A DNA stretch of 59,800 nucleotides, from the NCBI GenBank assembly GCA_001898255.1, contig MKTK01000008.1, forward strand, positions 1-59,800, read 5' to 3'. Source of the DNA: Chryseobacterium sp. 39-10 (GTDB taxonomy: Bacteria > Bacteroidota > Bacteroidia > Flavobacteriales > Weeksellaceae). Shown piece after piece: positions 33,321 to 50,364 of this stretch. The first letter of the stretch is position 1, and each line of letters opens with the position of its first letter. The position numbers were made by a program, and so were the translations under genes. The notes beneath the pieces were generated by a model. The model did not search any database. It was given only the letters and a program-made list of their open reading frames with translations, and was not told the origin of the DNA.

Positions 33321-34133
33321 TTAGTCTTTTATTTTTAATGTTCCTTTTAGATGAATAAAACTTCCATCAGGATTGGCAATATTGGTATACACTTCATGGG
33401 TATTCCAATTTTGTACATGAACCACATTTGCTTTCGTGCTTGCTTCACTCCAATACACCATATATACGTTCGGGCTTACTTCTACCGCTGTGTATCGTAC
33501 TAATTCAGCTAGATTTTTATTGGCTGCAGTAGTTCCAGTGAATCGCATTTGCTGGTTATCGATAAAATTTAAGTCAAATTGAAAATCTTTACCAAAATCT
33601 ACCAGTACATGATTCCCTATTGCTGGATACGGTGATTTTAGTTCCCATTCCATTTCGCCTTTAAAAACCTTTGCTCCCATTTTTAGATTATCAACACCTC
33701 CTAATTTCGGATATTTAGCGATCATTTTTTCTGACAATTCATCACCTGTTTTACTGGATTCTGCAGCAGCTTTGTAGTTTACTAAATACTCTCTTACAAA
33801 ATCAAGTACTTTTGGAGAATCGTTCGATTTCAAGTAATGCGAAGCAATCACTTTGGAAGGATGTAGTGCTTTCATCTTATCTATCTGACCCACCCATTTG
33901 TCAATTCCATCATACCCCTTGGTATCGGCCATCCAAAGATGTGTATCTATACTTACGGAAATTCCACCCGCAATCGTCTTTAAAGAAGGAATCCAGACAA
34001 AACTATGAGCAGGATCATTTGCAGTCGTGATGATTTCCAATTTGTGACCCTCTACATCCGGAATAGAAGTTACTGCCTTGGGGATTATGATTTCGGACGG
34101 AGCATCGGACTTCAACTGAGGAGTACATCTCAT
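33321..34133 (-). pseudogene. MBL-fold hydrolase fused to MoaF-like domain, 5' truncated
   Basis: The readable product (about 270-300 aa) starts inside a metallo-beta-lactamase-fold domain: LKSDAPSEIIIPKAV, HSFVWIPSLKTIAGGISVS and KVIASHYLKSND belong to its second half. The H-x-H-x-D-H metal motif that should precede them is missing. The C-terminal ~100 residues (YPAIGNHVLVDFGKDFQFDL, VYMVYWSE, VVHVQNWNTHEVYTNIANPDG) resemble the MoaF-like lipocalin domain. An ATG at 34229 extends the frame by 32 unrelated residues. The loss of the 5' part close to the island boundary at 34266 suggests a rearrangement there. It could still make a MoaF-like protein. Confidence 0.65.
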
Positions 34134-34153
34134 ACTTTTAAGAACATTGAGGT

Positions 34154-34168
34154 GTACAGTAGATGTAC
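34154..34168. promoter_or_regulatory. GTACA-N5-TGTAC inverted repeat
   Basis: GTACA (34154-34158) and TGTAC (34164-34168) flank five bases. A minus-strand -7-like TATATTTG (34169-34176) touches it. It looks like an operator upstream of the ATG at 34133. A related palindrome lies at 34327. Confidence 0.4.
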
Positions 34169-34265
34169 CAAATATACAAACAAAGGACAATATACGAAAA
34201 GAAAATAATCGTAAATTATTGATTATCAAATAAAAGAAAATAAAGGAAACTAAAAGAAAACAAAT

Positions 34266-34283
34266 TTATTTCCCAATACAGAA
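34266..34283 (-). other. Distal copy of the mnmE 3' end (candidate att site)
   Basis: TTATTTCCCAATACAGAA, read on the minus strand, encodes F-C-I-G-K-stop. It matches 16 of 18 bases with the end of mnmE at 48922-48939, in the same orientation. The final 18 bp of mnmE (trmE/thdF) are the known attachment site of SGI1-type elements in enterobacteria. No mnmE body lies upstream of this copy. Confidence 0.75.
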
Positions 34284-34326
34284 TCTAAAGATTGCTTTGT
34301 TTATAGTACTTTGAACCACGTCGAAT

Positions 34327-34343
34327 TGTACAAAAGTGGTACA
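34327..34343. promoter_or_regulatory. TGTAC-N7-GTACA inverted repeat
   Basis: TGTACAAAAGTGGTACA has 5-bp arms around seven bases and sits between the island edge and the WYL gene end. It resembles the site at 34154-34168 and may be an operator left over from the gene that lost its 5' part. Confidence 0.35.
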
Positions 34344-34367
34344 TAAAAACTAATCGAATTAATTTTC

Positions 34368-35363
34368 CTATATCTCGTAATTCCCCATTGCATTCTTTAA
34401 ATTTCTCTTGATGCTCCTTTTCAATTCTTTTGGTGCAAGAACCGTCATACTTTTTCCAAAACCTAAAATCAGTCTTTCTAATTCGTAATTATGTTGAACT
34501 TGAATTTCAAAAATATGCGAACCATCTTGCAATTTTTCAACTGTTTTTTGGGAATGATGAAAAGGCTTTGTAATTACATACGGCGAATTAGTTCTATCTA
34601 CTTTGAAAATAACGGTTTGTGGAGTTGCATTTGATACAGTAACTCCAATTACTTTTTCAAAATACGAATCACCGTCAATATTTTTATCAATATAATTTTC
34701 TTTTGAAGATTCAATAGTTACTATTCTATCCAAAGCGAGATTAAGCATTTTATTTTCGCACCAACACACCAAAAACCAACGATTGTTGAACTCTTTTAAA
34801 AGTTGTGGCGAAACAGTGTAAGTAATACTATTTCTCGAATTAAAAGATTGGTATTCAATACAAATCACTTTTCTATTGATGATGGATTGATACAAAATAT
34901 CAATAAATTCTAAACCTTTTAAGCGTTCGTTTTTATCTAAATGAATCACGGATTTTTGCTTAACAGAAGAAATAGAATCTTCCAACTTTTGCAAAACTCC
35001 ATTCATTTCCTGAAAAACCGAAAAGTCTTTGAATTGCTTTAAAAGTTGAACAGCATCATTCATCACTTTCAAATCATTTTCATTGACTGGAATATTTTTT
35101 ATGCTGTAATTAGAATCTGAATATCTATAAAATTTTCTCTGAAAAACTTCAATTGGCGCATTATAGCCTAACTTTTCGCTTCTCATAGTTTGGATATCGA
35201 GCTGAACAGTTCTCTTGCTTACCAAATCGTATTTCCCTTCATATTCATACAAAGCATCAGAACAAGCGTCCATCAAATCCTCCAAAGTCCAGTCTTTTGT
35301 GCGGTTTCTGAAGCACTTGTCTAAAGTATGATACCGAATCAAAGCATTTTTATTCGAAGCCAT
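34368..35363 (-). CDS. WYL-domain transcriptional regulator
   Basis: The 331-aa regulator has an N-terminal winged helix (ALIRYHTLDKCFRNRTKDW, VSKRTVQLDIQTMRSEKLGYNAPIE) and a central WYL domain (VICIEYQSFNSRNSITYTVSP, RWFLVCWCENKMLNLALDRI) with a C-terminal WCX extension (ELERLILGFGKSMTVL). WYL domains bind nucleic acid ends or nucleotide ligands and often control defence and RNA-damage genes. It is transcribed away from rtcB with 95 bp between the starts, which contain a 19-bp palindrome. It probably controls itself and rtcB. Confidence 0.85.
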   Translation of the reverse strand: MASNKNALIRYHTLDKCFRNRTKDWTLEDLMDACSDALYEYEGKYDLVSKRTVQLDIQTMRSEKLGYNAPIEVFQRKFYRYSDSNYSIKNIPVNENDLKVMNDAVQLLKQFKDFSVFQEMNGVLQKLEDSISSVKQKSVIHLDKNERLKGLEFIDILYQSIINRKVICIEYQSFNSRNSITYTVSPQLLKEFNNRWFLVCWCENKMLNLALDRIVTIESSKENYIDKNIDGDSYFEKVIGVTVSNATPQTVIFKVDRTNSPYVITKPFHHSQKTVEKLQDGSHIFEIQVQHNYELERLILGFGKSMTVLAPKELKRSIKRNLKNAMGNYEI

Positions 35364-35389
35364 TTTGAAAATTTTTCAGAAAAATATAA

Positions 35390-36841
<1,452 letters not shown>

Positions 36842-36853
36842 ATTTTCAAATAA

Positions 36854-36887
36854 ACAGAAGCAAATTTATTTTGCTTCTGTTTTTTTA
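36854..36887 (+). terminator. Terminator of rtcB
   Basis: ACAGAAGCAAA (36854-36864) pairs with TTTGCTTCTGT (36870-36880), followed by a run of T. Confidence 0.85.
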
Positions 36888-36917
36888 TTAATACGTAAAC
36901 AGACCTAACTTAGAATA

Positions 36918-38150
36918 CTATTTAAATGTAAGTAGAGACTTTTGAATGATTTCACAAATGGATTGACTAACGCCAAATTCTTTTGATAATTCTGACCAAG
37001 TAGAAAGTGCAGAACGAGTTTGCTCCATCACATTGTCAATGAATTCTTTTGATAGTTTAGCTTCCATACCTAGCTTTTTTAGATGTTTTGCGGTAATATT
37101 CTTACCCTCTCCCATTACTATTGTGCTCTGTTCTCCACCTGGGCCAGATGAGAAAGTAAGGTCGTAAGCAGGTGATAATTTCCATTCTCCAAATTCATTC
37201 ATTAGAAAAGAAAAATTCTTAGCATGATCGTCTCGATTGTGCGCCATCACATTGAAAACGGCTAACCGAAACATTTTTTCTACCTCGCGAATATCTTTGG
37301 TTAAAGCACCTGTCAATGCTAATAAGTCCTCATAATCAAGAGATGGCAATCTAAAATTGCTGTGAACAAGTCCACTCACCGTATGCATATGAAAACGCTT
37401 ATTTCCCTCTCTATCAAAACGTTTTACAGCAAAGTATCCATTCCCTTTCTGTGAGTGAAACAAATGCACATCAGGCATTTTAACTCCTGCGTCTAAAGCC
37501 ATTAAAGCATAAATATATTCTATTGCTCCAGCATCTTTTCCATCTTGAGCATTAGGAAATTTCACCATCCAATGTTCTAAACCACCACTCAGCTGATCTG
37601 TACCATACGTTATTTTTGTTCGATCAGTGTTAACACCAATCATTGCTTTTGGTCGTGCTCCTGCGGAAGATCCATTCAAAGCCAAAAGTTCGTCAATTAC
37701 GTCGTCTGAATCACCTTCCAAAACCTCTTCGGTTTGTGTTGCCAAAATATCCAAATCAATCATCTCATTACTAGTATCTGGACTTTGATCTGGTTCATAA
37801 ACCAAAGCGCCCATACCTTGCAATCCAACGTACGCTAAACGGTCAAGTGGTGAAATATCCGATGGTAAAATCCCTTCTGACCGTAACATACGATCAAAAA
37901 GTAATCTTCCCCAACCGTCGGGCAAACTATCATTGAAAACACCAGCCAAACCTTCAAAAGGATCTCTTGGAAGCGCTATTACGTCCCGTTGCAAAGGAAG
38001 TCTTATCGGTGAAATTTCGATATTGGCTTGCAGAAATTCTTCATCGTATTGAAAGTAGATGATACCGTCACGAATTGCCAGACGACCTACGTGTTGAATC
38101 CCTGAATCAAAATTCAATCCTACTTTTATTTCATTAATGCCTATTCTCAT
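36918..38150 (-). CDS. hipA: HipA-family serine/threonine kinase toxin
   Basis: The 410-aa protein is a full-length HipA kinase. The N-terminal subdomain (DGIIYFQYDEEFL, SPIRLPLQ) is present. The activation segment LNGSSAGARPKAMI (about 155-168) holds the Ser/Gly loop, HNRDDHAKNFSFL (about 300) the catalytic Asp and Asn, and SPAYDLTFSSG the metal-binding Asp. HipA toxins phosphorylate aminoacyl-tRNA synthetases (GltX in E. coli) and cause dormancy. Its start overlaps the end of the antitoxin gene by 4 bases (ATGA), the normal order antitoxin-toxin. Confidence 0.9.
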   Translation of the reverse strand: MRIGINEIKVGLNFDSGIQHVGRLAIRDGIIYFQYDEEFLQANIEISPIRLPLQRDVIALPRDPFEGLAGVFNDSLPDGWGRLLFDRMLRSEGILPSDISPLDRLAYVGLQGMGALVYEPDQSPDTSNEMIDLDILATQTEEVLEGDSDDVIDELLALNGSSAGARPKAMIGVNTDRTKITYGTDQLSGGLEHWMVKFPNAQDGKDAGAIEYIYALMALDAGVKMPDVHLFHSQKGNGYFAVKRFDREGNKRFHMHTVSGLVHSNFRLPSLDYEDLLALTGALTKDIREVEKMFRLAVFNVMAHNRDDHAKNFSFLMNEFGEWKLSPAYDLTFSSGPGGEQSTIVMGEGKNITAKHLKKLGMEAKLSKEFIDNVMEQTRSALSTWSELSKEFGVSQSICEIIQKSLLTFK

Positions 38151-38452
38151 TTTCTGCTTCCTCGTTTTTTAATTGGTTTTTCCTCTGATTTTAGTACATC
38201 ATCAATAGATTTAAAACGCTGTTCCTCCGGTTTTAAAACATCAACCATTTCTTCTAAACCACCAATTACAGAAAGAATTTTCAAGAATGATTCTAAAGAA
38301 ATCACTCCTTTTTGTTCAAATTTCCTTAAAGTAGGTAACGGAACACCCGATCTTTCTGCCAATCCTTCCTGTGTTAGATTCATTTGCAATCGTCTTTCAC
38401 GGAGATGTGCTACTAGTTTTTTTTGTATTTTAGATAATGAATTAAATAACAT
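38147..38452 (-). CDS. hipB: HipB-like XRE-family antitoxin
   Basis: The 101-aa protein has one helix-turn-helix of the Cro/C1 type (LVAHLRERRLQMNLTQEGLAERSGVPLPTLRKFEQKGV, in part) and a charged C-terminal tail that would contact HipA. It neutralises the kinase and represses its own operon. The tail ends KKRGSRK, longer than in E. coli HipB (88 aa). Two operator-like repeats lie in front of and over its start codon. Confidence 0.85.
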   Translation of the reverse strand: MLFNSLSKIQKKLVAHLRERRLQMNLTQEGLAERSGVPLPTLRKFEQKGVISLESFLKILSVIGGLEEMVDVLKPEEQRFKSIDDVLKSEEKPIKKRGSRK

Positions 38453-38467
38453 AATGGTATTATTTAA
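38442..38467. promoter_or_regulatory. hipBA operator 1, over the start codon
   Basis: TTAAATAA (38442-38449) and TTATTTAA (38460-38467) form an inverted repeat around ATAACATAATGG-type sequence. It contains the hipB start codon (complement of 38450-38452). The same TTAAATAACATwATkGTATTA core recurs at 38483. Confidence 0.55.
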
Positions 38468-38482
38468 TGAGGATATTTGATT

Positions 38483-38511
38483 TTAAATAACATTATTGTA
38501 TTACAAATATA
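38483..38511. promoter_or_regulatory. hipBA operator 2 and -7 promoter element
   Basis: A second copy of TTAAATAACATTATTGTATTA starts at 38483. Its right edge overlaps a minus-strand -7 box TATATTTG (38504-38511). Binding of HipB here would block the promoter directly. Confidence 0.55.
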
Positions 38512-38540
38512 GTGAATTTTTAACAAATGACTGAAGTGAA

Positions 38541-38577
38541 AACAAAAACAGATAATCGGAAATTTTTCGATTATCTG
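38541..38577 (-). terminator. Terminator of the mcrBC/hsd operon
   Basis: CAGATAATCG (38549-38558) pairs with CGATTATCTG (38568-38577). On the minus strand it is followed by TGTTTTTGTTTT. It lies about 60 bases after the mcrC stop codon. Confidence 0.6.
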
Positions 38578-38636
38578 CTTGGGATTTGACAAGAAATGAT
38601 ATATCATTTTCAACAATTAAATTTCTTTCTCATGTT

Positions 38637-39875
38637 TTAAGAAAGAAAACTAATATCAATAAATTCAACTAATTTATTTTGCCATTCTTTAACTTGAGAA
38701 TGAGTTGATATATAAATTACGCTACAAAATTTATCTGACAATGTAGTATGATCTTTGATATTTGTATAAAATCCATCAATAATTTTTGAATTTTCACCAG
38801 GATATAATAATGCAGTCTTCTCTGCTTGAAAGTAATGATGATAGGTGAACATTTGCCTAAGATCATCTGGAGAAGGATTATATCCATTTAAGTTTTTCCA
38901 CTTCGTATCTAATACAAAATTAGTATTTGAATCTTTATGAGTCATCACAATATCTGGACGCATCTTTGAGTGGTTTCCTTTACTTGGTTTCCAGAAGTTT
39001 TTTGATATCTGAGAATTTACATGGTAACTTTTAAATTTCTTTTTCAATGTTACGAAAACAAATTGTTCCCATAAATTGTTCATATCAAACATTAAAGCCA
39101 AAACATGATTGGATCCTTTGGAAATATCTGGATGATAATTTAGTAATAACAATTTTGCAATCTCAATGGATGTCTTATATGAAATCGATTTTCTATCAAA
39201 ATGAAGCCTTTCAAAGGAAGTTTCCGAAATTCTAATATTTTGCATTTCTGGAAACTTAAGAAATAAATTTCCTATTCTACTTTTTAACAAAGGATTTGTA
39301 TTAATCTGACCAACTAATTTTAATGCCTTAAAAAGAATTTGATTGAATACATGTTCAAACCTATACTCGGTGCTTTTAACGTAGAAAAGTTCCTGATGTG
39401 TACAATTTTTAGAAATATGTTTTGAAAACTCAATTGCGCCTTTCAGATATGTTCGGTTCCCTTCCTCTTTTCTATATTTTTTGATGAGTCCTTTATGAAG
39501 TAAAAGTTCAACTTCTTTTATAAAAAGTTCAATGTATAAATCAAGTATAGAATTGTTCTTTATTTTAAGAGAAGAAGTTCCAGAAGACTTCACATCAAAT
39601 CCCCAAACTTCTTTCAGCATATCAATTAAGATTGTTCGCCATCTTTCTGCTCCAAATTGATCAGCTTTCGGTAAAACTTCAATGGTAATTTCTCCAACCT
39701 GAATAATGCCTACAAAAGAATTAAACTGAACGCCATTTTTTATCAAAGTAAAATAAGGAGAATAATGACCATAATAATTTTCCAACGCATCCAAAATCTC
39801 CCTCTCTTCCTTTTTTTGAGGATTGAAAAGAATTTTCTTGTGTTCAAAAACCGTTATGGTATTGTTTACGATCAT
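38637..39875 (-). CDS. mcrC: McrC nuclease subunit
   Basis: The 412-aa protein is the nuclease partner of the McrBC restriction complex that cuts DNA containing modified cytosine. The PD-(D/E)xK centre is visible as RPDIVMTHKD (about residue 304) and FVLDTKWKNL (about 318). The N-terminal part (VGIIQVGEITIEVLPKAD) is the McrB-contacting region of the family. It starts one base after the mcrB stop codon, so translation is coupled. The modification recognised depends on McrB and is not known. Confidence 0.85.
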   Translation of the reverse strand: MIVNNTITVFEHKKILFNPQKKEEREILDALENYYGHYSPYFTLIKNGVQFNSFVGIIQVGEITIEVLPKADQFGAERWRTILIDMLKEVWGFDVKSSGTSSLKIKNNSILDLYIELFIKEVELLLHKGLIKKYRKEEGNRTYLKGAIEFSKHISKNCTHQELFYVKSTEYRFEHVFNQILFKALKLVGQINTNPLLKSRIGNLFLKFPEMQNIRISETSFERLHFDRKSISYKTSIEIAKLLLLNYHPDISKGSNHVLALMFDMNNLWEQFVFVTLKKKFKSYHVNSQISKNFWKPSKGNHSKMRPDIVMTHKDSNTNFVLDTKWKNLNGYNPSPDDLRQMFTYHHYFQAEKTALLYPGENSKIIDGFYTNIKDHTTLSDKFCSVIYISTHSQVKEWQNKLVEFIDISFLS

Positions 39876-39876
39876 C

Positions 39877-41820
39877 TTATTTTTTCATCAAAGTCTGAAG
39901 TGCAAATTTAAAACCTGCTGGATCATCTTTATGATTAATAATTTCAAATATTTCTTTCTGATCATATTGTGAAGAATCGGAATAATCAAAATCAGCAAAA
40001 ACAGATTCCTTCTCCAACTTCTGAACAAAACCTGATCCTAGAATCAAACCAATTTTACCATAATCACAAAAAAAGTATTCTTGTAAAAGCGGAATAATGT
40101 TTCGATAAAAAGAATCAATAATTGTCGTTGCATCTTTGCCAATAAAATAAGCATGACCAATGGAATGATCTCTATCCAAAAGTTTTTCTATTCTACTATT
40201 GATTGTTTTCAAAATATCGGATACTTGAAAGTCATATAAGGTATAATCCAATTCCTTTAAATCGTAATCTGGCAGTATTTCTTCAAACACAAATCTTCTT
40301 CTAAGTGCAGAATCTAATGCTTCAACACTTTTATCAGCAGTGTTCATCGTACCGATGATATATAGATTGGGAGGAACACCAAATTTTTCATCCTTACTGT
40401 ACGGAAGATTCAATTCAATTCTTTCATCTTCCCCTAATCTTTTATCTGGTTCAATTAATGTAATTAACTCTCCAAAAATCTGAGATACATTGCCTCTATT
40501 TATCTCATCTATTATTAAAACAAAATTCTTGAAGAATTCAACCTCCTGACCTTTATTAGAATACATTTGTAGTTTATCCAGAATTGGAGGATAGTAAATT
40601 CCTACTCCTTTAGAAGTAATTTCACGTTCACCATAAAATAGTTCTCTCAGTGTATTAATACTTAAAGTGTGCCCAGTTCCTCCACTTGCTTTCTTAAATG
40701 AAATAGATTTGCTAGAAAAACCCATGATTGTAAATTCGTTCCCATCCCTTTTCATGGAGAATTTCATACTATTATCTTCTTCCCATTCATCCTTCAGTCT
40801 TTCAAATGATGCTTCAAATGAAAGTTTACCCTTTTTGAATTGATTACTAATCCAATTGTCTTTTGCTTTGTCCGAAATCAACTTGAATAATCCATCTTTC
40901 ACATCATAAATAACTCTTCCTTCTTTGGTTTCAGGCTTTATTCCTTCCACAAAATCTTCATAAGACATACTTTGGTGAAATGTGGTAAACATAATCTGCC
41001 CAGCTTTTACCAAACGTTGGTATTCTTCTTTTACACCTTTTCTTGGTTGATTAATATTAAAATCAGGATTGGCAATTCTTACAGCTTTACTAATAGTAGT
41101 GTATGTTTTTCCTGTTCCAGGAGGACCATAGAGAATTTGATTAAGGGGTGGACGAAAATCTTCGGGTTCTGCAGTACCATCAAATTCTTCATCTTCCTCC
41201 AACTCGTTTTCTAAATCTTCTACAATCTTATAGCGCTTAAAACGATCATGCATTTTTTGAAGCATATTTTCTTGTTCATTTGATGTAAAACGGTGTGCAA
41301 CAAAATCTGGATGTATATTTTTAAGACTTTTTATTTCTTCATCAACAATCGGAATTATTTCTGATATCATCACCTCTAAATCAGGCAACAAGTCTTGAAA
41401 ACTTGAGTATTTTGGCGTTGAATACACTCCGAAAAACTCCATCTTATTATTTTCTGAACCTGCATATACATGCTCAAACCTGTCCCCTATCTTATCCTTT
41501 ATATTTTTAATGAGTTCAAGTGCGTAAGAATTTTGTGAATCCTGTGGATCTCTCGTTTGGTTCAATTGGAAAAAAAATTCAATACCACTTTTCTTCCTGA
41601 GATCGAAAACTAAACTGAGTAGATCTCCTGAAGAACCTGGATATGATACAGGAACAAACCAAAATGTGGTTGCAAAATATTTACTTTTCTCAGTACCAAT
41701 AAAATAATTGAGTTCTGCACCTTTCGATGCTTTTTGGCGCACAGAAAATGTAAAACTATTGTCTTGATCGTATTTGGATTTCAACCACTCAAAAACCTCA
41801 ATCTGGAGTTGTTTGTACAT
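39877..41820 (-). CDS. mcrB: McrB-like AAA+ GTPase
   Basis: The 647-aa motor subunit has an N-terminal ~200-residue domain unlike E. coli McrB that should read the DNA modification, a charged acidic linker, and a McrB-type AAA+ domain. GPPGTGKTYT (about 231-240) is Walker A, LIIDEINRGN (about 433) Walker B, and GTMNTADKSVEALDSALRRRF (about 490, in part) the McrB consensus loop and sensor region. It forms the GTP-driven ring that activates McrC. It lies downstream of the hsd genes on the same strand, the same company mcrBC keeps with hsd in the E. coli immigration control region. Confidence 0.85.
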   Translation of the reverse strand: MYKQLQIEVFEWLKSKYDQDNSFTFSVRQKASKGAELNYFIGTEKSKYFATTFWFVPVSYPGSSGDLLSLVFDLRKKSGIEFFFQLNQTRDPQDSQNSYALELIKNIKDKIGDRFEHVYAGSENNKMEFFGVYSTPKYSSFQDLLPDLEVMISEIIPIVDEEIKSLKNIHPDFVAHRFTSNEQENMLQKMHDRFKRYKIVEDLENELEEDEEFDGTAEPEDFRPPLNQILYGPPGTGKTYTTISKAVRIANPDFNINQPRKGVKEEYQRLVKAGQIMFTTFHQSMSYEDFVEGIKPETKEGRVIYDVKDGLFKLISDKAKDNWISNQFKKGKLSFEASFERLKDEWEEDNSMKFSMKRDGNEFTIMGFSSKSISFKKASGGTGHTLSINTLRELFYGEREITSKGVGIYYPPILDKLQMYSNKGQEVEFFKNFVLIIDEINRGNVSQIFGELITLIEPDKRLGEDERIELNLPYSKDEKFGVPPNLYIIGTMNTADKSVEALDSALRRRFVFEEILPDYDLKELDYTLYDFQVSDILKTINSRIEKLLDRDHSIGHAYFIGKDATTIIDSFYRNIIPLLQEYFFCDYGKIGLILGSGFVQKLEKESVFADFDYSDSSQYDQKEIFEIINHKDDPAGFKFALQTLMKK

Positions 41821-41841
41821 ATGTTATTTATGTTTTTAGTT

Positions 41842-41910
41842 TTAATTCACCTTCACCTGCCCATTCATCAACATCGGTAATAGCCAATCACTTAACGAAG
41901 CGAATTTTGT
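41842..41910 (-). repeat. Duplicated 3' tail of hsdS
   Basis: On the minus strand this 69-bp piece reads TKFASLSDWLLPMLMNGQVKVN and a stop. It matches the end of the hsdS gene (ATLRDWLLPMLMNGQVKVG, 42565-42633), at DNA level closely. The zinc-ribbon lipoprotein gene lies exactly between the two copies. It marks either insertion of the lipoprotein gene into the hsdS 3' end or loss of a second hsdS. Confidence 0.8.
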
Positions 41911-41924
41911 ATGTTATTGTTTTA

Positions 41925-42551
41925 CTATTCCTCTTCCTCCCTTCTTTTGCAATTATTACAAAGATCATCAAATGATGAAAATTTGTAACCGCCACAACTG
42001 GTGCAGGTATGTTCTATTTTGTTTTGTCTTTCTTGCTCTTCATCTTCTATTTTTCTTTTACAAGAATTGCAATATGTGTCATATTCATCTTTTTCATCTC
42101 CGCATTTTGGACAAGTGGTATTTTCTACATCTTCATTTACAGCATTTTGCAATCTTCTACCGTCGCTGTAACAACCGCCTCCTTTTTCTCCCAAAGTTAC
42201 AGTGTATTGATATCCTCGATCACTTGTAAAGGAACATTCTCCGCTAGAAATATCTTCACTGCTAAAGTGAGTTTCATCTAGCCAACCACCATTTGGCCAA
42301 TCAATTTGAACCAAATATCCATTTTCTACTTCAACATCCAGTTCGTATGTACTTCTTGTTCCTGTGCTGGGATTGTAGTATTCCACTTCTGCGCAATACG
42401 TTCCATTAAGATCCTCGTCATCGTTCAAAATAAAATCATCATTACTGCTCCATAAAGAAGTTGACGAAGAATCTGTAGAGTCTGTTGTACTGCTTTTTTT
42501 ACAGCCTAGTAAAATGAGCAATAGGAATAAAAAGTAAATTTTTTTCATCAT
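41925..42551 (-). CDS. Zinc-ribbon lipoprotein of unknown function
   Basis: The 208-aa protein is a lipoprotein (MMKKIYFLFLLLILLGC) with a Ser/Thr/Asp-rich linker, a middle domain with Cys residues (GTYCAEVEYY, GECSFTSDRGYQYTVTLGEKGGGCYSDGRR) and two C-terminal zinc ribbons: CPKCGDEKDEYDTYCNSC and CTSCGGYKFSSFDDLCNNC. The last part is highly charged. Lipid-anchored proteins with paired C-x-x-C ribbons are unusual because zinc ribbons are more typical of the cytoplasm. It is carried between hsdS and the duplicated hsdS tail. No function is assigned. Confidence 0.6.
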   Translation of the reverse strand: MMKKIYFLFLLLILLGCKKSSTTDSTDSSSTSLWSSNDDFILNDDEDLNGTYCAEVEYYNPSTGTRSTYELDVEVENGYLVQIDWPNGGWLDETHFSSEDISSGECSFTSDRGYQYTVTLGEKGGGCYSDGRRLQNAVNEDVENTTCPKCGDEKDEYDTYCNSCKRKIEDEEQERQNKIEHTCTSCGGYKFSSFDDLCNNCKRREEEE

Positions 42552-42564
42552 AAATTCTTGTATT

Positions 42565-43875
42565 TTACCCTACTTTCACCTGCCCATTCATCAACATTGG
42601 CAACAACCAATCCCGTAAAGTTGCGAGCTCTTGGTTTTGTTTTAGATTGGATTGCCTTTTTTTCTCCAAATCGGAGGCAACTGCATTAAATTTCTTCGCC
42701 AATTCTTTATCAGGCCTTACAATATAATATGATTCCATAAAAGAGTCAAATTGGAAATTTTTAATTCCACTTGTTTTCCCTTCATATCCAAAGAAAATTC
42801 CTGCCTCGTATAATCTTTGCCATTCTTGTTGAAAGTTGAAAGCAAAAATGTCATCCTTCAATGTCACCGCTTTACAAAAATTGGAACATACAACATCTGT
42901 ATCAAATCTTGTAAATGATTCTTTGGTTAAATGGGCAATTCTTGCTGTTGACTGAGTAGGGCTGCCTCCTGATATTTCGATAATAAAATCATTAGGTTCA
43001 AGCTTTTTAGAAAGATTATTTTTTAGAATAAATCTTTCAGGAGCTTTAACTTCTCCTTTGCCATTTAAACCATTAATATCTGCGCCTCTCACACAATATA
43101 CTCTCTCTGTATAATTGCCTTCAATTTTATCCTTTCCCCAATCTCCTGTCTTTGTATTTTTAATCCAATCATTAAATACTGAAACCTCCCAACCTTCAGG
43201 AATTTCTCTTTTTAGAGTTTCGTTAAAAATCATTCTTCCGCCTGAAGATTTATAAGGCTTTCCATCGGGATTTGGAAACTCAAACTGTACAAACCAATAA
43301 TCATACAGCGTTTTTGCCATCGCTTCCAACTCGGTGTTAATCTTATTGTTCAACTCGATTTTATCATCCAATGCTGATAATACGGATGCTATTTTTTGTT
43401 GGGTGGGAATATCTGGAACATCAATTCTGGTTTTTTTTATAATATCCAAAGGTGGCAAATTAGGGATAACAGAATCTCCATTAATACCAGAAATCATCTT
43501 AATTATGTGGTATTTAAAATAATACTTAAAAAAGCTAGTATCTACAACATTATTATTGACTCTAATTCTTATTAATGCTTGATTAATTACAGCTGGAAAA
43601 CTTAAATTATTAATTTCATATAGTTTTCCAAGTGTACCAGCTCCAGTAATTAATATATCTCCATTCTTTACTATAAATCTTTTAAGTTTTTTTTCTACAT
43701 ATTCTTTTTCCAAATAATAATTTCCAATTGAAATATCTCTATTGATCACTACAGATTGTTCTAGAACTTTATAAGAATCAGATTGTCTTGGAATAAACAA
43801 TGCCTTTTTTACGTCACCTCCAAACGGCCCTTTAATCATTCCGTCCTTTTCAACAATTAAATCATTAAATATCAT
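42565..43875 (-). CDS. hsdS: Type I restriction specificity subunit HsdS
   Basis: The 436-aa protein sets the DNA target of the HsdRMS complex. It has two target-recognition domains: TRD1 (about 1-165, ending PLDIIKKTRIDVPDIPTQQK) and TRD2 (about 210-400), separated by the conserved helix IASVLSALDDKIELNNKIN and closed by the second helix LEKKRQSNLKQNQELATLRDWLLPML. These helices fix the spacing between the half-sites. Its start overlaps the hsdM stop by 11 bases. The N-terminus is rather short (starts MIFNDLIVEKDG). Confidence 0.9.
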   Translation of the reverse strand: MIFNDLIVEKDGMIKGPFGGDVKKALFIPRQSDSYKVLEQSVVINRDISIGNYYLEKEYVEKKLKRFIVKNGDILITGAGTLGKLYEINNLSFPAVINQALIRIRVNNNVVDTSFFKYYFKYHIIKMISGINGDSVIPNLPPLDIIKKTRIDVPDIPTQQKIASVLSALDDKIELNNKINTELEAMAKTLYDYWFVQFEFPNPDGKPYKSSGGRMIFNETLKREIPEGWEVSVFNDWIKNTKTGDWGKDKIEGNYTERVYCVRGADINGLNGKGEVKAPERFILKNNLSKKLEPNDFIIEISGGSPTQSTARIAHLTKESFTRFDTDVVCSNFCKAVTLKDDIFAFNFQQEWQRLYEAGIFFGYEGKTSGIKNFQFDSFMESYYIVRPDKELAKKFNAVASDLEKKRQSNLKQNQELATLRDWLLPMLMNGQVKVG

Positions 43876-45484
43876 ACCTCAACCCTTTTAATTGGTTCTG
43901 AATCTCCGCATCCAAACGCTTGCCTTCTGCAAATAAATCTGCCAATCGGTTTTCAAAACCTTGCATTTTTTCGGCAAATTCCGTTGGGGTAATGTCCACA
44001 TATTCGATCTTCACTTCAAAGTATTGTCCTGCCGAGAAACTATAGTTTTTGGCTTTAACTTCTTCACTGTTCACTACAACAGAAAAATCATCCATTGCCG
44101 TTTTAGTATTCATTGCAGAAATAATCTGTTCTTCTTCTTCTTTGGTTAAAACGGTGCGTTGGTTTTTACCTTCCTTCACCGTTTCACCTAATTTGGAAGC
44201 ATCTACCAATACAATGTGTTCATTATCCGCTTTTTTATCAAAAAACAGAATCGAAACATTAGTTCCTGTACTCGCAAAAATATTACTCGGCATACTCACC
44301 ACACCACGCAACCAACCACGAGTAATTAACTCTTCTCGTATTTTCTTTTCAATACCACTTTGAGCCGTTATAAATCCTGTCGGAACAACAATAGCCGCTT
44401 TTCCTTTCTCCGAAAGGCTGTACATAATGTGTTGTACAAACAACAGATAGATTGCCATTCCATCTTTTTTTGCATTCGGGATTTTCGGTACACCCGCAAA
44501 AAAACGAGCTTTATAGCTGTCGGATAAAAGCTTCGCTTGATAATCCGAAAAATCTAATTTGAAAGGCGGGTTTGAAACAATATAATCGAATTTTTCTTGC
44601 AGATAATTCGGGTTCAAAATCGTATTACCTTTCACAATATTCGGAATAGAGTGCGACAAGCTGTTTATGATTAGGTTCAATCTCAGCATATTGGCAGATT
44701 TTTGAGAAATATCTTCCGAATAAATACTGCAATTTTTTTCACCAATAGCATGCGCAATATTCATCAAAAGCGTTCCTGATCCCGCACTAGGATCGTATGC
44801 CTTAACACCATTGTCTTTTTCTGTCACCAATATCGCTGCCATAATTCTGGCAACTGCATGCGGCGTATAATATTCCGCATATTTCCCACCAGAATCGGAG
44901 TTGTAATCTTTAATTAAGTATTCGAAAATCGTAGAGAAAAAATCATATTTTTCCGAGAACATTTTCTCGAAGCTTACATCTACAATTTTACTCAATAAAG
45001 CTCTTGCAAAAGCATCTCTTTGCGATGCATCTCGGATGTACTGACTAAGATCATCAAACATCTTTTCCTTTCCACCACCTTCAGACTTTACAGCATACAA
45101 ATGCTCGTTATCCGCATTCAAGCTTCTAAGCGTTCCATCAAAATAAATGTCGGCAAAATTCTCTGAGTTATTCTTGTTATAAACATACGAAATCATCTGT
45201 TCAGGCTTCATTTTAGCAGCCTTTGTTCCGATTCTTGCTAACAAAAATTTTTGTTCGTTCTCTGATAATGCTTCATAAGCATCTTGAAATTTTTCAGCTT
45301 TTGCTAATTTTGGATCCGATTTTTTAGCTTCGTATATAAACTTATCATTTAGATATTTATATAAAAAAACTTGAGTAATAATATTAAATTCGCTTGCATC
45401 ATTCCCTAAACCATAGTTAGCACAAACACTTTTAAGTCCGTCAATTAATAATTTGGTTTTGGTTACAAATTCTTGGTCTGTCAT
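43865..45484 (-). CDS. hsdM: Type I restriction methyltransferase HsdM
   Basis: The 539-aa protein is an N6-adenine methyltransferase: AYDPSAGSGTLLMNIAHA (about 224-241) is the SAM motif and IVSNPPFKLDF (about 298-308) the N-P-P-F catalytic motif. The N-terminal helical domain (KLLIDGLKSVCANYGLG) belongs to the HsdM family. With two copies per HsdS it protects host DNA at the target. It starts 5 bases after the hsdR stop codon on the minus strand. Confidence 0.95.
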   Translation of the reverse strand: MTDQEFVTKTKLLIDGLKSVCANYGLGNDASEFNIITQVFLYKYLNDKFIYEAKKSDPKLAKAEKFQDAYEALSENEQKFLLARIGTKAAKMKPEQMISYVYNKNNSENFADIYFDGTLRSLNADNEHLYAVKSEGGGKEKMFDDLSQYIRDASQRDAFARALLSKIVDVSFEKMFSEKYDFFSTIFEYLIKDYNSDSGGKYAEYYTPHAVARIMAAILVTEKDNGVKAYDPSAGSGTLLMNIAHAIGEKNCSIYSEDISQKSANMLRLNLIINSLSHSIPNIVKGNTILNPNYLQEKFDYIVSNPPFKLDFSDYQAKLLSDSYKARFFAGVPKIPNAKKDGMAIYLLFVQHIMYSLSEKGKAAIVVPTGFITAQSGIEKKIREELITRGWLRGVVSMPSNIFASTGTNVSILFFDKKADNEHIVLVDASKLGETVKEGKNQRTVLTKEEEEQIISAMNTKTAMDDFSVVVNSEEVKAKNYSFSAGQYFEVKIEYVDITPTEFAEKMQGFENRLADLFAEGKRLDAEIQNQLKGLRYDI

Positions 45485-45489
45485 TTTAT

Positions 45490-48400
45490 TTATTGATAGT
45501 TAAATTGATTAAGATACTCATTAACAATCAGATGGTTAATCTTCTCGGTGGTATCAAAATCCAGTTTCATTTTTTGTTGATCGATAAATTGATCGATAAC
45601 GATACTCATTACTTCTTCTTTAAAGTATTCGTCATTTTGCATTAAGTTGATATTTTTTAAGAAAATACCATCAACAACGCTTCTTGTCTGCATCAATGCA
45701 TCATAAATCTGAGCTTCTTTAGCAGAAACTGTGTTTTTTTCTAGTAATCTTTTGTGGATTCTTACATATTTTTCATCACCGTCATATTTTTCTCGCAAGT
45801 TATTATTTTTACGATTGAGTTCTTTTACTTCATCATAAATTCTTGATAATACAACGATGTTGTCTCGCATATCTTCTTGCGAAACTTCGTCAAGATTTTT
45901 ATTTTTAAAAATCCGTTCAAGTTCTTCACGTAAAGAGATAAACTCTGGTGACGATTGATCAAAATTGCGTTGCAACTCTTCTCTTGTTTTTCTCAATTGA
46001 TCTTTCAACTTATCCGCAAGAATCATTTCTTCTTCCGAAACCTTTTCGAATTGGAAAAAAATATCTTCTAAAGCAATATTCAAGAGATTTGAAGTTGCAG
46101 CATCTGAATTGATCTCTTCTACTAAATTCAAAGTATCCAGTCGTGCTTGAGCAACTTTAAGTAACTGATTAAGCTTATTAAAATCTAAAGCATTTAATAG
46201 ATCGGTTTCATCTTGGAATCGAATAATATTTTTTAATTCTCTAGCAGTATTAAGAAGTTTTACTAATTCGACTAACTGAGCTTTATCCTTAATCTCGTCC
46301 GTCTGCAATCTGAAGTTTTCTGCATTTTTAATATCGAACTGGAAAAGCTTGTCCTTGATGTTGCTGATGTCGGTTTCAATTTCTTCTCTAGTCTTGAAGA
46401 GATTACTGTAAGATTGCATCTCGTCACCAAGTTCTTCTTGTAGCTCTTCAAAGTAATTTTGATTGGTTTCTTTAAACTCTTTGGTAATATCTGCGAAATC
46501 GACAACATGACCATATCGGTACTTTTTATAGGGTCTATTTACCCTTGTCAATGTCTGCAGAAGGTTATGATTTTTTACGACTCTAGCCAGATACAATTTC
46601 TTCAATCGCTTGGCATCAAAACCTGTCAAAAGCATATTGTAAACAAATAGGATATCTATTTTCCCTAGTTTATAGGCAGAGATTAGATCTTTTCGGATCA
46701 GTTTGTCGTTTTCATCATGAAGAATTAACGAAGCCTTAAGATTCGGACGATTTTCGACTTTGTATGATGCTCTGGATTCAGCAACAAGTTTTACAGATTC
46801 CGTTTCTTGCTTTCCAAATTTCTTTTCAAAAAACTTAAACAATTCTCTTGCTTGATCTGCGCTGTCACATACCACCATTCCCCCTAAAGAATCATCTTGC
46901 CAATATTCTCTGAAAGAGTACAAATCCTCCAAAATATAATCCAACATCGGCTCTGCAAATTTTGAATGAGCAAAGATTTCACTCTTAGAAATATCACCTT
47001 TCAAAACCTTGATTTGATCAATGATATCCTTCATCTGCATGCTATACTTGGTAGCAATAGCTTCGCGAATTAATCTTAAAGTATAACCATCTGCGATAGA
47101 AGAATTGTAGTAGTATTTGTGAATGTAATCTCCAAAAATTAATTTGGAGTCATATTGCTTTGCAACTTCTTTTAGCAAAGGCGTTCCTGTAAGGGCAATC
47201 TTCACCGAATCTTGGTCAGACTTCAATAAATTGACCAGGTAACTGCCTTTCGGGTTGTAGCTTCTATGTGCTTCGTCAATAAAAAATACTCGTTGAATGT
47301 TGAGATCATAATCGATCTTCTCAATTACAGTACTGTCTTCTGTGAATTTTTGAATATTAACGACGGTAATTTCTAATTCACCTGAATTATTCTGCAATGC
47401 ACCGACTTTTTTCATGTCTGCGACGAATTCAGCACGGGAATTCACCATCTTAACTAAAAGTCCTCGCTTCGAAAATTCATTATTCGCTTGAATAGCAAGA
47501 TCCAAACGATCGACAATGAAATAGAATTTTGGAATCGTATTTTTCTTTTGGTAATAATCCGTCAGAAATTTAACATTGTAAAATGCCAAGGCTGTTTTTC
47601 CTGAACCTTGTGTATGCCAAATAATTCCTTTTTTAACATCCTCGTCCAATTTTCTTGCAATCGCTTTTGTTGCAAAAATCTGAGGATAACGCATGATATG
47701 CTTTTGAATTTCCTTTGTACCATCAGCCTTTTCTTCATCCAAATAGGCAATTGTGTATTGTAGGATAAATGCCAATCTCTCTTTAGAAAGCAATGAAGTT
47801 AGGATTCTATTGGTCGGTTTATTATAATCCTTATTGGTAATAAATTCGTCTGTATGCTTAATGGCAACAATGTTATTATCTTTAAGAATTAAGTTTTCTA
47901 AGTCTTGATTTTCAGGCTGTAATAATCGTGTAAGATCTAAATTTTCTTCTTCTCTAAAGTAGTTAAAATGAACATCTTCTTTGGAAGGTGTACCATAATA
48001 AGCTCCCATAATAGGCTCTACAACACCATCTTCATATTCCATATTATTGGAGAAGATCATGAGCTGCGTGATATTAGTGAAAACATTGAAAGCTTTTAAA
48101 CTAAAACGCTTATTAATACGCTTTCTTTCAGCTAAAACCCCATCTTTATTATTTGGCTTTTTAACTTCGATAAAGACTAAAGGCATTCCATTAATGAGAA
48201 TCGTAATATCTGGACGAAATTCTTCATCACCATTTTTACACGTTAGCTCTGTTGTTACGTGAAAGCTGTTGTTATTGAAATTATCAAAGTCAATAAGTTT
48301 AATTCCTGAAGTGTTTACTAAACTTTTGTAAAATTCACGACCTAGGTCATTATACTTAAGTTTTAAGCTTACTTCATCTAAAACTTTTTGTACTTCTTGT

Positions 48401-48567
48401 TCAGAAAGATTCCCGTTAATCTTACTTATGCTATTCAAGAATAATTCAGGGAAAATATTATTTTCTTCAATTCTATCTTGTTGACTTCTCGGAATATATT
48501 GATAACCAAGCCTACACAAATGTAAAATTGCGGGTATCTTGACTCTTGAATCTTCGTTAAACGCCAT
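45490..48567 (-). CDS. hsdR: Type I restriction endonuclease subunit HsdR
   Basis: The 1025-aa motor-nuclease has an N-terminal PD-(D/E)xK domain (RPDITILINGMPLVFIEVKKPNN, about 118-140, in part), two helicase domains with Walker A HTQGSGKTALAF (about 316) and the DEAH box FIDEAHRSYNP (about 430), LTGTPL motif III and TRVNRPYK motif VI, then a long helical C-terminal part that docks on HsdM. It translocates DNA and cuts unmodified DNA far from the target. It is the first gene of the minus-strand run hsdR-hsdM-hsdS and appears complete. Confidence 0.95.
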   Translation of the reverse strand: MAFNEDSRVKIPAILHLCRLGYQYIPRSQQDRIEENNIFPELFLNSISKINGNLSEQEVQKVLDEVSLKLKYNDLGREFYKSLVNTSGIKLIDFDNFNNNSFHVTTELTCKNGDEEFRPDITILINGMPLVFIEVKKPNNKDGVLAERKRINKRFSLKAFNVFTNITQLMIFSNNMEYEDGVVEPIMGAYYGTPSKEDVHFNYFREEENLDLTRLLQPENQDLENLILKDNNIVAIKHTDEFITNKDYNKPTNRILTSLLSKERLAFILQYTIAYLDEEKADGTKEIQKHIMRYPQIFATKAIARKLDEDVKKGIIWHTQGSGKTALAFYNVKFLTDYYQKKNTIPKFYFIVDRLDLAIQANNEFSKRGLLVKMVNSRAEFVADMKKVGALQNNSGELEITVVNIQKFTEDSTVIEKIDYDLNIQRVFFIDEAHRSYNPKGSYLVNLLKSDQDSVKIALTGTPLLKEVAKQYDSKLIFGDYIHKYYYNSSIADGYTLRLIREAIATKYSMQMKDIIDQIKVLKGDISKSEIFAHSKFAEPMLDYILEDLYSFREYWQDDSLGGMVVCDSADQARELFKFFEKKFGKQETESVKLVAESRASYKVENRPNLKASLILHDENDKLIRKDLISAYKLGKIDILFVYNMLLTGFDAKRLKKLYLARVVKNHNLLQTLTRVNRPYKKYRYGHVVDFADITKEFKETNQNYFEELQEELGDEMQSYSNLFKTREEIETDISNIKDKLFQFDIKNAENFRLQTDEIKDKAQLVELVKLLNTARELKNIIRFQDETDLLNALDFNKLNQLLKVAQARLDTLNLVEEINSDAATSNLLNIALEDIFFQFEKVSEEEMILADKLKDQLRKTREELQRNFDQSSPEFISLREELERIFKNKNLDEVSQEDMRDNIVVLSRIYDEVKELNRKNNNLREKYDGDEKYVRIHKRLLEKNTVSAKEAQIYDALMQTRSVVDGIFLKNINLMQNDEYFKEEVMSIVIDQFIDQQKMKLDFDTTEKINHLIVNEYLNQFNYQ

Positions 48568-48921
48568 TAATATTCTCAGTTTTTAAGAGGTTAAAGATAA
48601 CAAAACACTAACAAAGGAAAAAAGTAAAAACATAATTAATATTCTACTGGAATTCCCAAAAATAACTGCTTAATCACAATATGTTTATTATAAAAACTCT
48701 ATTTTTGCTATAGTAAATAAAAAACAACGTAAAGTGTAAGCTATCGTATTGGGTAAAGAAAACCGCTAATTTTCAAAACAATCCAAATTCGATACTTACG
48801 CCCATGTCATCTTATGGCTTGGGCTCTAAGTTCTATCTGGATTTTGTGTTTTCGCAGACGATCAACATTTCCTATATTAATGCGGATTGTATAGTAGAAA
48901 TATGGTATTAGAAATCAGCGA
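48568..48921. other. Non-coding island edge
   Basis: About 350 bp between hsdR and mnmE. No integrase or other gene, and no convincing TAnnTTTG element for hsdR, was seen. It must contain the hsdR promoter. Confidence 0.5.
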
Positions 48922-48939
48922 TTATTTCCCAATGCAAAA
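48922..48939 (-). other. Proximal mnmE 3' end (candidate att site)
   Basis: TTATTTCCCAATGCAAAA is the complement of the last six codons of mnmE (F-C-I-G-K-stop). The related copy is at 34266-34283. Confidence 0.75.
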
Positions 48940-50364
48940 CTTCGAGAAAATATTCCCCAGTACTTCATCATTGGTAAACTCACCGGAAATTTCACCTAAA
49001 TGTTCCAGTGCATTCCGAAGCTCGTAAGAAAGAAGCTCTGTGGTGAGCTGCGCATGAACCGCTTCTTCTACCTGCTCTACCGATGCCAGCGACTGCCTCA
49101 ATGCTTCATAATGCCGTTGGTTGGTGATGACGACGTTGCTTTCTTCGCTTTTTAAAAGCTCTACGTAAGAAGATAATTCGTTTTTGAGATCGTGAAGGTG
49201 CATATCCTCCAATGCCGAAATAGGAATAAAATCAAATTCGCGCGCAAGGTTTCCTCTAAGTTTCTCTTCAAAACCTTCCATCACTGTCGGCAAAACTTCA
49301 TCCATTTTGGTGGCACAGATAATCAGCTTCAAATCGGCCCGAAGTATGGACTCCAACAGTTTAAAATCTTCAGAAAAATCCTTAGTGGCAGCATCAATTA
49401 AGTAAATCAAAACCTCTGCGTTTTCAACTTTTTCCTTGGCTTTCCGTACCCCGATGGCTTCTATTTCATCATTCGTTTCACGCAGCCCCGCAGTATCGAT
49501 CAACCGAAAAGGATGCCCTTTGATGTGCAATACTTCCTCGATGGTGTCGCGCGTTGTGCCTGCAATGTCCGAAACAATTGCTCTTTCTTCTTTCAACAGA
49601 GCATTCAACAGTGTAGACTTCCCCGCATTAGGCTGCCCGATAATGGCCACCGCCGTTCCGTTCTTCAATGCATTGCCATAATGAAAACTGTCCAGTAAAA
49701 CCTGTAATTTCTCTTTAAGTCGGAAAATCAGCATATTCAACGCACTACGATCGGCAAACTCCACATCTTCCTCAGCAAAGTCGAGTTCGAGCTCGATCAG
49801 CGAAGTAAAATTAAGCAGATCGTTTCTCAACAATGAAATTTCATTGGTAATGCCTCCTTTTAATTGGTTTAATGCCACCTTGCGCGACGTTTCGTTTTCG
49901 GATGCAATCAGATCAGCAATAGATTCGGCCTGGCTCAGGTCAATTCGTCCATTCATAAAGGCACGCATCGTAAACTCCCCTGCTTTCGCCATTCTTGCAC
50001 CGTTTTTAATCAAAACCTCCAAAATTCTTTTGGCAATAAACGGTGAACCGTGAAACGAGATCTCTACTGAATTTTCAGTCGTAAACGTCTTCGGCGCCTT
50101 GAAAACCGAAACCATCACCTCATCGATCACTTCTTGGCTGTCGGTTGTTGGTTGTTGGCTCTCGGTTTCCTTATTCTTTATTCTTTGGTCTTTGTTCTCA
50201 ACTACAAAACCGTAATGCACCGTGTGCGACTTCACTTTCGTCAGATCTTTTCCTTCAAAAATCTTATTCACAATTTCCAAGGACTGTACTCCCGAAACTC
50301 TGATGATTCCGATCGCTCCTATCCCGTTCGCAGTGGCTAATGCACAAATAGTATCCTGATTCAT
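48922..50364 (-). CDS. mnmE: tRNA modification GTPase MnmE
   Basis: The 480-aa protein with MnmG modifies U34 of tRNAs (cmnm5U) in a GTP-dependent way. The N-terminal folate domain starts DTICALATANGIGAIGIIRVSG, the G domain has G1 GQPNAGKST (about 241), G3 DTAGL and G4 TKMD, and the C-terminus ends in the invariant CIGK. Residues ~57-78 are an extra polar segment (ENKDQRIKNKETESQQPTTD, in part) inserted before EVIDEV, where other MnmE proteins have a short turn. At 50369-50376 a minus-strand -7-like TAAATTTG lies only 4 bases before the ATG. Confidence 0.95.
   Translation of the reverse strand: MNQDTICALATANGIGAIGIIRVSGVQSLEIVNKIFEGKDLTKVKSHTVHYGFVVENKDQRIKNKETESQQPTTDSQEVIDEVMVSVFKAPKTFTTENSVEISFHGSPFIAKRILEVLIKNGARMAKAGEFTMRAFMNGRIDLSQAESIADLIASENETSRKVALNQLKGGITNEISLLRNDLLNFTSLIELELDFAEEDVEFADRSALNMLIFRLKEKLQVLLDSFHYGNALKNGTAVAIIGQPNAGKSTLLNALLKEERAIVSDIAGTTRDTIEEVLHIKGHPFRLIDTAGLRETNDEIEAIGVRKAKEKVENAEVLIYLIDAATKDFSEDFKLLESILRADLKLIICATKMDEVLPTVMEGFEEKLRGNLAREFDFIPISALEDMHLHDLKNELSSYVELLKSEESNVVITNQRHYEALRQSLASVEQVEEAVHAQLTTELLSYELRNALEHLGEISGEFTNDEVLGNIFSKFCIGK

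Follow-up and report, generated by a model that had tools for sequence, protein, structure and literature searches.

Positions 34266-48939 of the window, by which we mean the whole 59,800-nucleotide stretch analyzed here (positions 1 to 59,800 of contig MKTK01000008.1 from Chryseobacterium sp. 39-10, assembly GCA_001898255.1), are very probably an integrated mobile element. It would belong to a family in the Bacteroidota whose tyrosine recombinase inserts into the last 18 bp of mnmE (trmE). We base this on a repeat of the end of mnmE at the far border of the island, on copies of the same core in related genomes, and on sequences at both borders that match the ends of elements in those genomes. 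The features that carry the argument are listed here; G and L numbers are our labels for genomes and loci, and G000 is the window's own genome.

48922..50364, minus strand: mnmE, the intact target gene, with the protein C-terminus NIFSKFCIGK (Pfam MnmE_helical, TrmE_N and MMR_HSR1; 67-78% identity to mnmE of 35 congeneric genomes)
48922..48939, minus strand: proximal core (attL-like), the final 18 bases of mnmE
48868..48921, minus strand: left end of the inner element ("class F"), about 54 bp beyond the core, containing CCGCATTAATA (BLAST E 1.3e-11 to the left end in G028)
34284..34345, minus strand: right-end arm of the inner element (21.5 bits with the arm model described below; 71-75% over 78-80 bp, core included, to 7 right ends)
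34266..34283, minus strand: distal core, which is both the right core of the inner element and the left core of an outer element
34123..34265, minus strand: left end of the outer element ("class B"), whose recombinase is missing (76% over 166 columns, E 4e-25, to G004, locus L067; 73-76% to 6 others)

The distal core (TTCTGTATTGGGAAATAA) and the mnmE core (TTTTGCATTGGGAAATAA) are identical at 16 of 18 positions, lie 14,656 bases apart, and share their orientation and codon register (F-C-I-G-K-stop). A core that matches the mnmE 3' end in register is present at both island borders. An earlier note on this DNA, made from the sequence alone, had described this repeat 14.66 kb from mnmE, and it was right about the identity, the strand, and the register. 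To gauge chance we used 100 dinucleotide shuffles of the window and allowed up to 3 mismatches to the core pattern. With the pattern of the distal copy there were on average 0.17 matches per shuffle, and 2 of 100 shuffles reached two matches; with the pattern of the mnmE copy these values were 0.45 and 9 of 100. So the repeat by itself is suggestive, and it is the core copies in relatives and the element ends that make the case strong.

Our genus sample has 36 genomes, including G000; mnmE was found in all of them, and FCIGK-stop ends every one of the 36 proteins. When we searched the 36 genomes in full for the tail pattern, it matched at 111 places, of which 36 were mnmE itself and 75 were other sites; a reversed control pattern gave 32. 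Seventeen of the 75 extra copies lie within 40 kb of mnmE, and all 17 are downstream on the mnmE strand (binomial P 6e-11), with none upstream or on the opposite strand within that distance in the 36 genomes. They are spread over 16 genomes (G000, G002, G004, G005, G008, G009, G010, G012, G013, G016, G022, G025, G030, G031, G032 with two copies, and G033). We also compared stretches of about 20 kb around mnmE from the other 35 genomes, two of which (G028 and G027) are shortened by a contig end. What lies downstream of mnmE varies by genome, and small groups share a gene; for example, a lycopene cyclase gene is directly behind mnmE in four. One gene family behind mnmE (F6, at 6 loci) was considered as a second integrase and rejected, as the member that we scanned is a lycopene cyclase.

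A tyrosine recombinase, which we call F1, is encoded directly behind mnmE in 13 of the 36 loci, and in 4 of these (G017, G022, G031, and G032) it is broken by internal stops. Four members were scanned for domains: all have Phage_int_SAM_5 and Phage_integrase, and three also have Arm-DNA-bind_5. Ten of the 13 loci include a small gene, F3, and the one member that was scanned in both libraries matched HTH_17 and the excisionase model TIGR01764. A distal core is present in 11 of the 13 F1 loci versus 5 of the 23 other loci (Fisher P 4e-4, computed over genomes that are related and not independent). The two F1 loci without one are G028, whose contig ends about 6.5 kb past mnmE, and G017, whose recombinase is broken.

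The arrangement extends beyond the genus. Our wider set consisted of 80 named loci (the best 80 of at least 572), which are Bacteroidota by name except for one metagenome-assembled genome; 9 of them have less than 2.5 kb of sequence downstream of mnmE. F1-type frames lie no more than 2.5 kb downstream of mnmE in 34 of the 80, and all 38 matched frames are on the mnmE strand. One further match lies downstream at a greater distance, and there were none in the 686 kb upstream of mnmE at these loci. The 34 loci include members of Chryseobacterium, Soonwooa, Epilithonimonas, Elizabethkingia, Cloacibacterium, Flavobacterium, Leeuwenhoekiella, Aquimarina, Marinoscillum, and the Saprospiraceae. These genomes show that the Bacteroidota have a family of elements at mnmE that share this core and encode a tyrosine recombinase. 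The earlier note had suggested an mnmE-targeting element in this phylum and had proposed a search for elements with a recombinase and the same core; such elements turned up in the genus, in the bacterial family, and in other Bacteroidota, and the suggestion is further supported by empty sites elsewhere and by the family-type ends in the window.

As for cargo, the 41 open reading frames (ORFs) of five recombinase-bearing elements had type I restriction-modification (R-M) proteins, other methylases, and Argonaute-, PD-T4-1-, and Tmn-like proteins among the matches listed (the best 25 of 50 families and the best 25 of 278). There was no relaxase among the 25 of 50 Pfam families listed. Genes of the primase/VapE type adjoin the recombinase in relatives. 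A cluster encoding an outer membrane efflux protein, a HlyD-like protein, and a major facilitator superfamily transporter occurs both in the recombinase-bearing element of G033 (L056, 8834-12927, plus strand) and in the F1-less element of G016 (L061, 9198-14684, minus strand). In G016 the cluster is accompanied by TetR- and CAT-family genes, and the element also carries a Fic gene.

We looked for relatives of the recombinase in phages as well. One scan of IMG/VR confirmed none. In a phage collection, the five best matches were 40-42% identical and came from unannotated records of 2.6-13.8 kb. One of these, the short record MT837961.1 (L203, from human faeces), has an mnmE 3' end at 1615-1632, and an F1-like recombinase follows after about 260 bp; it reads as bacterial chromosome. 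It was the only one of the four phage records inspected with an mnmE end.

At the right border, we described the family with a model that covers the 32 bases preceding the core. The model was drawn from 21 core sites other than mnmE and uses 16 sites from relatives, with the window left out; 4 of the 16 are away from mnmE or on another contig (G008 at +139 kb, G027 twice, and G028). The window's distal site ranked first of 119,536 window positions. With arm and core combined, it scored 46.8 bits and the next window position scored 1.5, and the model found no weaker internal cores that would split the island. (The right end in G011 scores 35.6 bits.) BLAST indicates that this module of about 60 bp before the core is common to elements with different left ends. 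Besides the 7 matches listed above, the window's right end has one more over 23 bp, and the right-end 1.2 kb has one weak match in a plasmid collection.

At the mnmE border, the window's left end is 90.4% identical over 73 bp to that of G036 and 79-86% identical to nine others, and the similarity ends at about position 73. Class-F left ends were found in 11 of 320 genomes of the bacterial family (E below 1e-10), from 5 genera, and each begins at the core; four further genomes with weaker partial matches (E 6e-4 to 1e-3) were set aside. In 4 of the 11 (G172, G226, G255, and G263) there is a match to the F1 hidden Markov model (HMM) 0.9-1.6 kb inside, and all of these but G226 carry a recombinase of the mnmE clade. 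Since three elements with the same left end carry such a recombinase, the window's copy either lost its recombinase or travels without one. In G263 and G255 the element is located at mnmE, and its distal core follows after 17.2 and 12.6 kb, respectively. The other seven class-F ends (G000, G011, G028, G036, G061, G081, and G221) have no F1-HMM match within 17.5 kb or before the stretch ends. The class-F similarity does not extend equally far: it covers about 72 bp in the window, reaches 105 in both G221 and G081 (versus most others), 188 in G011, 317 in G028, and 473 in G061, and runs on to at least 600 in G036. Internal deletions of unequal extent would explain these breakpoints. Some of these units are small. 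G011 has 3.4 kb between cores, with a HipA-like protein, and G061 (L188) has a 3.9-kb F1-less class-F unit between mnmE cores whose genes at 2912-5812 encode a TIR-STING protein beside a sub-threshold nucleotidyltransferase match, a pair that resembles CBASS (cyclic oligonucleotide-based antiphage signaling system). Also, G226 (L185, another genus) encodes a HipA-like protein 76% identical to the window's, directly before a right-end arm and core, with a class-F left end behind.

Occupied and empty sites can be paired in three cases. The distal flank of the G033 element (10.3 kb, with F1) aligns with G020 DNA that starts right at the mnmE core (91% over 3.9 kb). The empty site of G018 matches the far side of the occupied site of G002 (17.1 kb) at 95.4% over 1.3 kb from the core, where the mnmE genes are 97.4% identical, and that of G012 (28.2 kb) at 94.8% over 1.7 kb, where the mnmE genes are 91.9% identical. 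By empty we mean free of that particular element; G020 holds remnants of R-M genes further on. A comparison of G025 with G027 for the gain of one cassette showed no clean event. The earlier note had named two observations that would speak against insertion. One was a relative with the window's gene order and no insertion, and no relative shows that order behind mnmE. The other was a distal copy without an island, and here the nearest case is G010 (L059), where a longer copy of the tail, NIFSEFCIGK, lies 1964 bases behind mnmE, past a lycopene cyclase gene and a small ORF only, with no recombinase and without the usual right arm. Separately, about 4 kb upstream of its complete mnmE gene, G018 (L041) has a partial second copy of the mnmE 5' end at 2566-2997, which is 68% identical over query residues 1-163.

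The distal core is more than the island's far border. The class-B left end begins there, so the distal copy joins two elements in a tandem array. In other words, the proposed border holds as the right end of the inner element, but it abuts a second element without an integrase rather than native chromosome. Relatives of the class-B end lie directly behind mnmE in G004, G030, G033, G022, and G017, and at second cores in G008 and G032. In the window the similarity ends after 108-162 bp, before the conserved start of the recombinase (MKI...), at a fused gene:

33321..34229, minus strand: fused ORF with the C-terminal part of a Vmh-type MBL (metallo-beta-lactamase) hydrolase (profile positions 127-286 of 286, from ORF residue 36, at about 34124) and a MoaF-like domain

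This ORF is 5'-truncated where the outer left end stops, and its position beside that end is consistent with a deletion. Other tandems are found in G008, with two open recombinases, and in G032, with both broken. The window's order recurs in G263: past the distal core of a complete class-F element with a recombinase comes a class-B left end (91% identical over 166 bp to that of G022); the window's class-B stretch also matches the DNA past the G263 element (73% over 153 bp). Further out, the far side is not tied to a conserved flank: an ORF of 474 amino acids at 27680-29104 matches 5 other genomes, each time in part only (35-40%).

The island itself has ten ORFs:

45490..48567, minus strand: HsdR, type I restriction subunit (Pfam HSDR_N and SWI2_SNF2; PADLOC REase_I)
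43865..45484, minus strand: HsdM, type I methyltransferase (Pfam N6_Mtase; PADLOC MTase_I, E 3e-249)
42565..43875, minus strand: HsdS, type I specificity subunit (Pfam Methylase_S; PADLOC Specificity_I)
41925..42551, minus strand: ORF of 208 amino acids with no matches in Pfam, PADLOC, or NCBIfam
39877..41820, minus strand: McrB-like AAA protein (Pfam AAA_5; NCBIfam McrB PRK11331, E 1e-32, under its cut-off)
38637..39875, minus strand: McrC (Pfam McrBC, E 1e-60)
38147..38452, minus strand: HipB-like helix-turn-helix protein, an antitoxin by position (Pfam HTH_3)
36918..38150, minus strand: HipA-like toxin (Pfam HipA_C and Couple_hipA)
35414..36841, plus strand: RtcB-like RNA ligase, divergent (Pfam RtcB, E 2e-35; far under the NCBIfam RtcB cut-offs)
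34368..35363, minus strand: WYL/WCX regulator, divergent from the RtcB-like gene (Pfam WCX and WYL)

Pfam families match each of the systems that the earlier note had named as defensive cargo (WYL-RtcB, HipBA, McrBC, and HsdRMS). The WYL regulator and the RtcB-like ligase form a divergent pair at 34368-36841. The note's statement that an integrase is absent was also confirmed: none of the 10 ORFs matched a recombinase family in Pfam, none of the genome's 11 Phage_integrase matches is on the window's contig (C8), and a tblastn search of the window with the recombinases and excisionases of relatives gave at best E 0.03 at 26% identity, with no recombinase remnant. The Pfam scans gave no match to a relaxase among the island's ORFs either. 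Because the island lacks its own recombinase and excisionase, it would be a derivative rather than an autonomous member of the family. We also compared composition, as the earlier note had proposed. The island is AT-rich (33.3% GC) compared with the mnmE side (41.6%) and the far side (mean 37.3%), and GC at third codon positions is 0.24-0.32 in island genes versus 0.47 in mnmE. But 30022-32997, just past the distal core, is AT-rich too (32.6% GC), so composition does not mark the distal border.

We placed 63 recombinases in a tree, and 43 of the 44 from mnmE elements fall into one group (support 0.846). Eight of the 19 others join this group, and the remaining 11 fall outside it. The eight (L191-L198) were taken from a set of 11 recombinases of 415-417 amino acids, 40-42% identical to F1, that occur once each in G003, G004, G006, G009, G010, G020, G024, G026, G030, G033, and G035. 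The genus has other recombinases as well: G003 has runs of similar tyrosine recombinases of about 330 amino acids, several of them about 3 kb apart (contig C1, 1320437-1345480 and 1402391-1442187), and there are such runs in G029 and G032.

Several observations weigh against our interpretation of 34266-48939. The eight recombinases just mentioned are congeneric, have open frames, and are not beside mnmE, and the class-F recombinase of G226 is outside the mnmE clade. There is therefore no one-to-one link between recombinase and site, and the preference for mnmE appears to be a property of most, not all, of that group. A related HsdRM pair (62-67% identity) and a McrB-like stretch lie 4-14 kb behind mnmE in G014, where there is no core copy in a range of 40 kb; cargo like this can therefore be found at mnmE without visible borders too. 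For the window itself, we found neither an empty site nor a second strain (the closest mnmE has 74.9% DNA identity); thus the comparison with empty sites that the earlier note had proposed succeeded for three other insertions but not for this one. The array's outer border did not turn up in the window, which begins at the end of contig C8. The window's class-F match is short, at 72 bp. Finally, four sites without a visible arm (G010, the first copy in G032, G002, and G005) had been dropped before the arm model was built, and two of the 16 sites that were kept score poorly when left out (L066, -17.0; L163, 0.6).

In the mechanism that we favor, a recombinase with Arm-DNA-bind_5, SAM_5, and Phage_integrase domains would insert elements at the tail of mnmE and leave its reading frame intact. 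Each newer element would have recombined at the mnmE-proximal core and displaced the older one outwards. The inner element's recombinase may have disappeared in a deletion that left the first 72 bp of its left end in place (the breakpoints in relatives are elsewhere), and the outer element may have lost its own. The island would have been retained for its cargo (type I R-M, McrBC, HipBA, and RtcB/WYL), and it might move again given a cognate recombinase in the cell.

Alternatively, the island could be a passenger: a defence cassette without a recombinase that keeps both att regions and is moved in trans by resident or incoming recombinases of mnmE elements. We regard this as possible, if somewhat doubtful. 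Seven of the 11 class-F ends had no F1-type recombinase in the stretch examined, and F1-less elements between cores recur (G000, G009, G016, G025, G011, and G061, with a core pair in G027). Outside the window's genome, Pfam found no recombinase in the scanned ORFs of G009 (6 of 7), G016 (8), G025 (2), G061 (3), G011 (3), or G027 (4). The closest parallel to the window is G009, with 13.0 kb between cores, type I R-M and HipBA genes, and no F1-type recombinase. The outer flank is the same in G009 and G031 (97.6% over 3.7 kb), but their inner elements differ, and the recombinase of G031 is broken. The inner breakpoints differ, but each of the 11 class-F ends has retained 72 bp or more and with them the CATTAATA motif or a variant; the search itself required such similarity, however. 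There is a precedent as well: PMC3191183 describes the microcin H47 island of E. coli, which spans 13 kb and, like ours, is flanked by imperfect direct repeats and has no recombination genes; it is excised and integrated by functions of its genetic context. It differs in its repeats, host, and cargo, and its mobility has been shown, while the window's island is known from sequence. On the other hand, in no case did we see the same recombinase-less element at two unlinked sites, the window's genome has no close F1 gene (the best is 34% identical), and kept ends are also expected from recent decay, given that 4 of the 13 F1 genes at mnmE are already broken. Decay and mobility in trans both fit the data.

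We think it unlikely that the island is a fusion in which the class-F left end and the right end at 34284-34345 come from two tandem elements, joined by a deletion between them. Tandem elements are present here and elsewhere, and the right-end arm is common to several left-end types and so cannot be assigned to one of them. But there is no remnant of an internal core, as the gap from 46.8 to 1.5 bits indicates, although a deletion could have removed one. That the distal 18 bp are an accident among ordinary chromosomal accessory genes would fit the 2-9 of 100 shuffles with equal match counts for the 18-mer alone, but this is very improbable given the best right arm of all window positions, a class-B left end that starts at the core, and a class-F left end at mnmE.

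A broader idea, which we offer tentatively and consider doubtful, is that the mnmE 3' end is a phylum-wide docking site for defence cassettes in the Bacteroidota: autonomous elements would provide the recombinase, and many cassettes, including this island, would ride in trans and build tandem arrays.

Elements of this general kind are already known. According to excerpts of four papers, islands of the SGI1 type target the tail of trmE in Gammaproteobacteria, have 18-bp repeats, and form tandem arrays (PMC9035990, PMC8409611, PMC5704250, PMC11237444). The earlier note's suggestion that the site is shared with them is borne out in the parts of these papers that give it: the target is the same gene end, the direct repeats have the same length, and the SGI1 repeat TTCTGTATTGGTAAGTAA (PMC11237444) is identical to the window's distal core at 16 of 18 positions. 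Tandem arrays of different islands at trmE are described in a part of PMC9035990. The host phylum differs, however, and the Bacteroidota recombinases that we scanned are of the SAM_5 type, 3 of 4 with Arm-DNA-bind_5. Also, none of the genes that form the conserved SGI1 backbone (int, xis, mobilization and transfer genes) has a family match among the 10 island ORFs of the window in Pfam and PADLOC, or in NCBIfam for part of the ORFs; no search with SGI1 proteins was made. GIPmi1, GIPvu1/2, and the tandem islands of Vibrio also occupy the trmE 3' end, and excerpts of PMC9035990 describe some of them as carrying an integrase, an excisionase, and R-M genes and as standing next to SGI1-like elements in tandem arrays; they differ from the window's island in belonging to Gammaproteobacteria and, for those described there, in having an integrase. 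The integrative and mobilizable elements of Bacteroidetes (NBU1, Tn4555, and others) have a tyrosine recombinase and Bacteroidota hosts, but the table parts of PMC5704250 place none at trmE. We found no account of mnmE/trmE elements in Bacteroidota, only gammaproteobacterial papers or papers unrelated by title and abstract, in a search that most subscription journals lay outside of. As far as that search reaches, the Bacteroidota family looks like a variant not described before, both in how widely it occurs and in how often its recombinase is missing.

For the Bacteroidota, this family means that restriction, Argonaute-like, STING-type, toxin-antitoxin, and other cargo are gained and swapped at one fixed address with recognizable ends, so the turnover of defence genes in a large phylum should be measurable at a single site. 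Islands in a distant phylum target the same end of this gene. Furthermore, the islands that have kept their ends without a recombinase would form a set for testing whether defence islands can move as parasites of other elements' recombinases.

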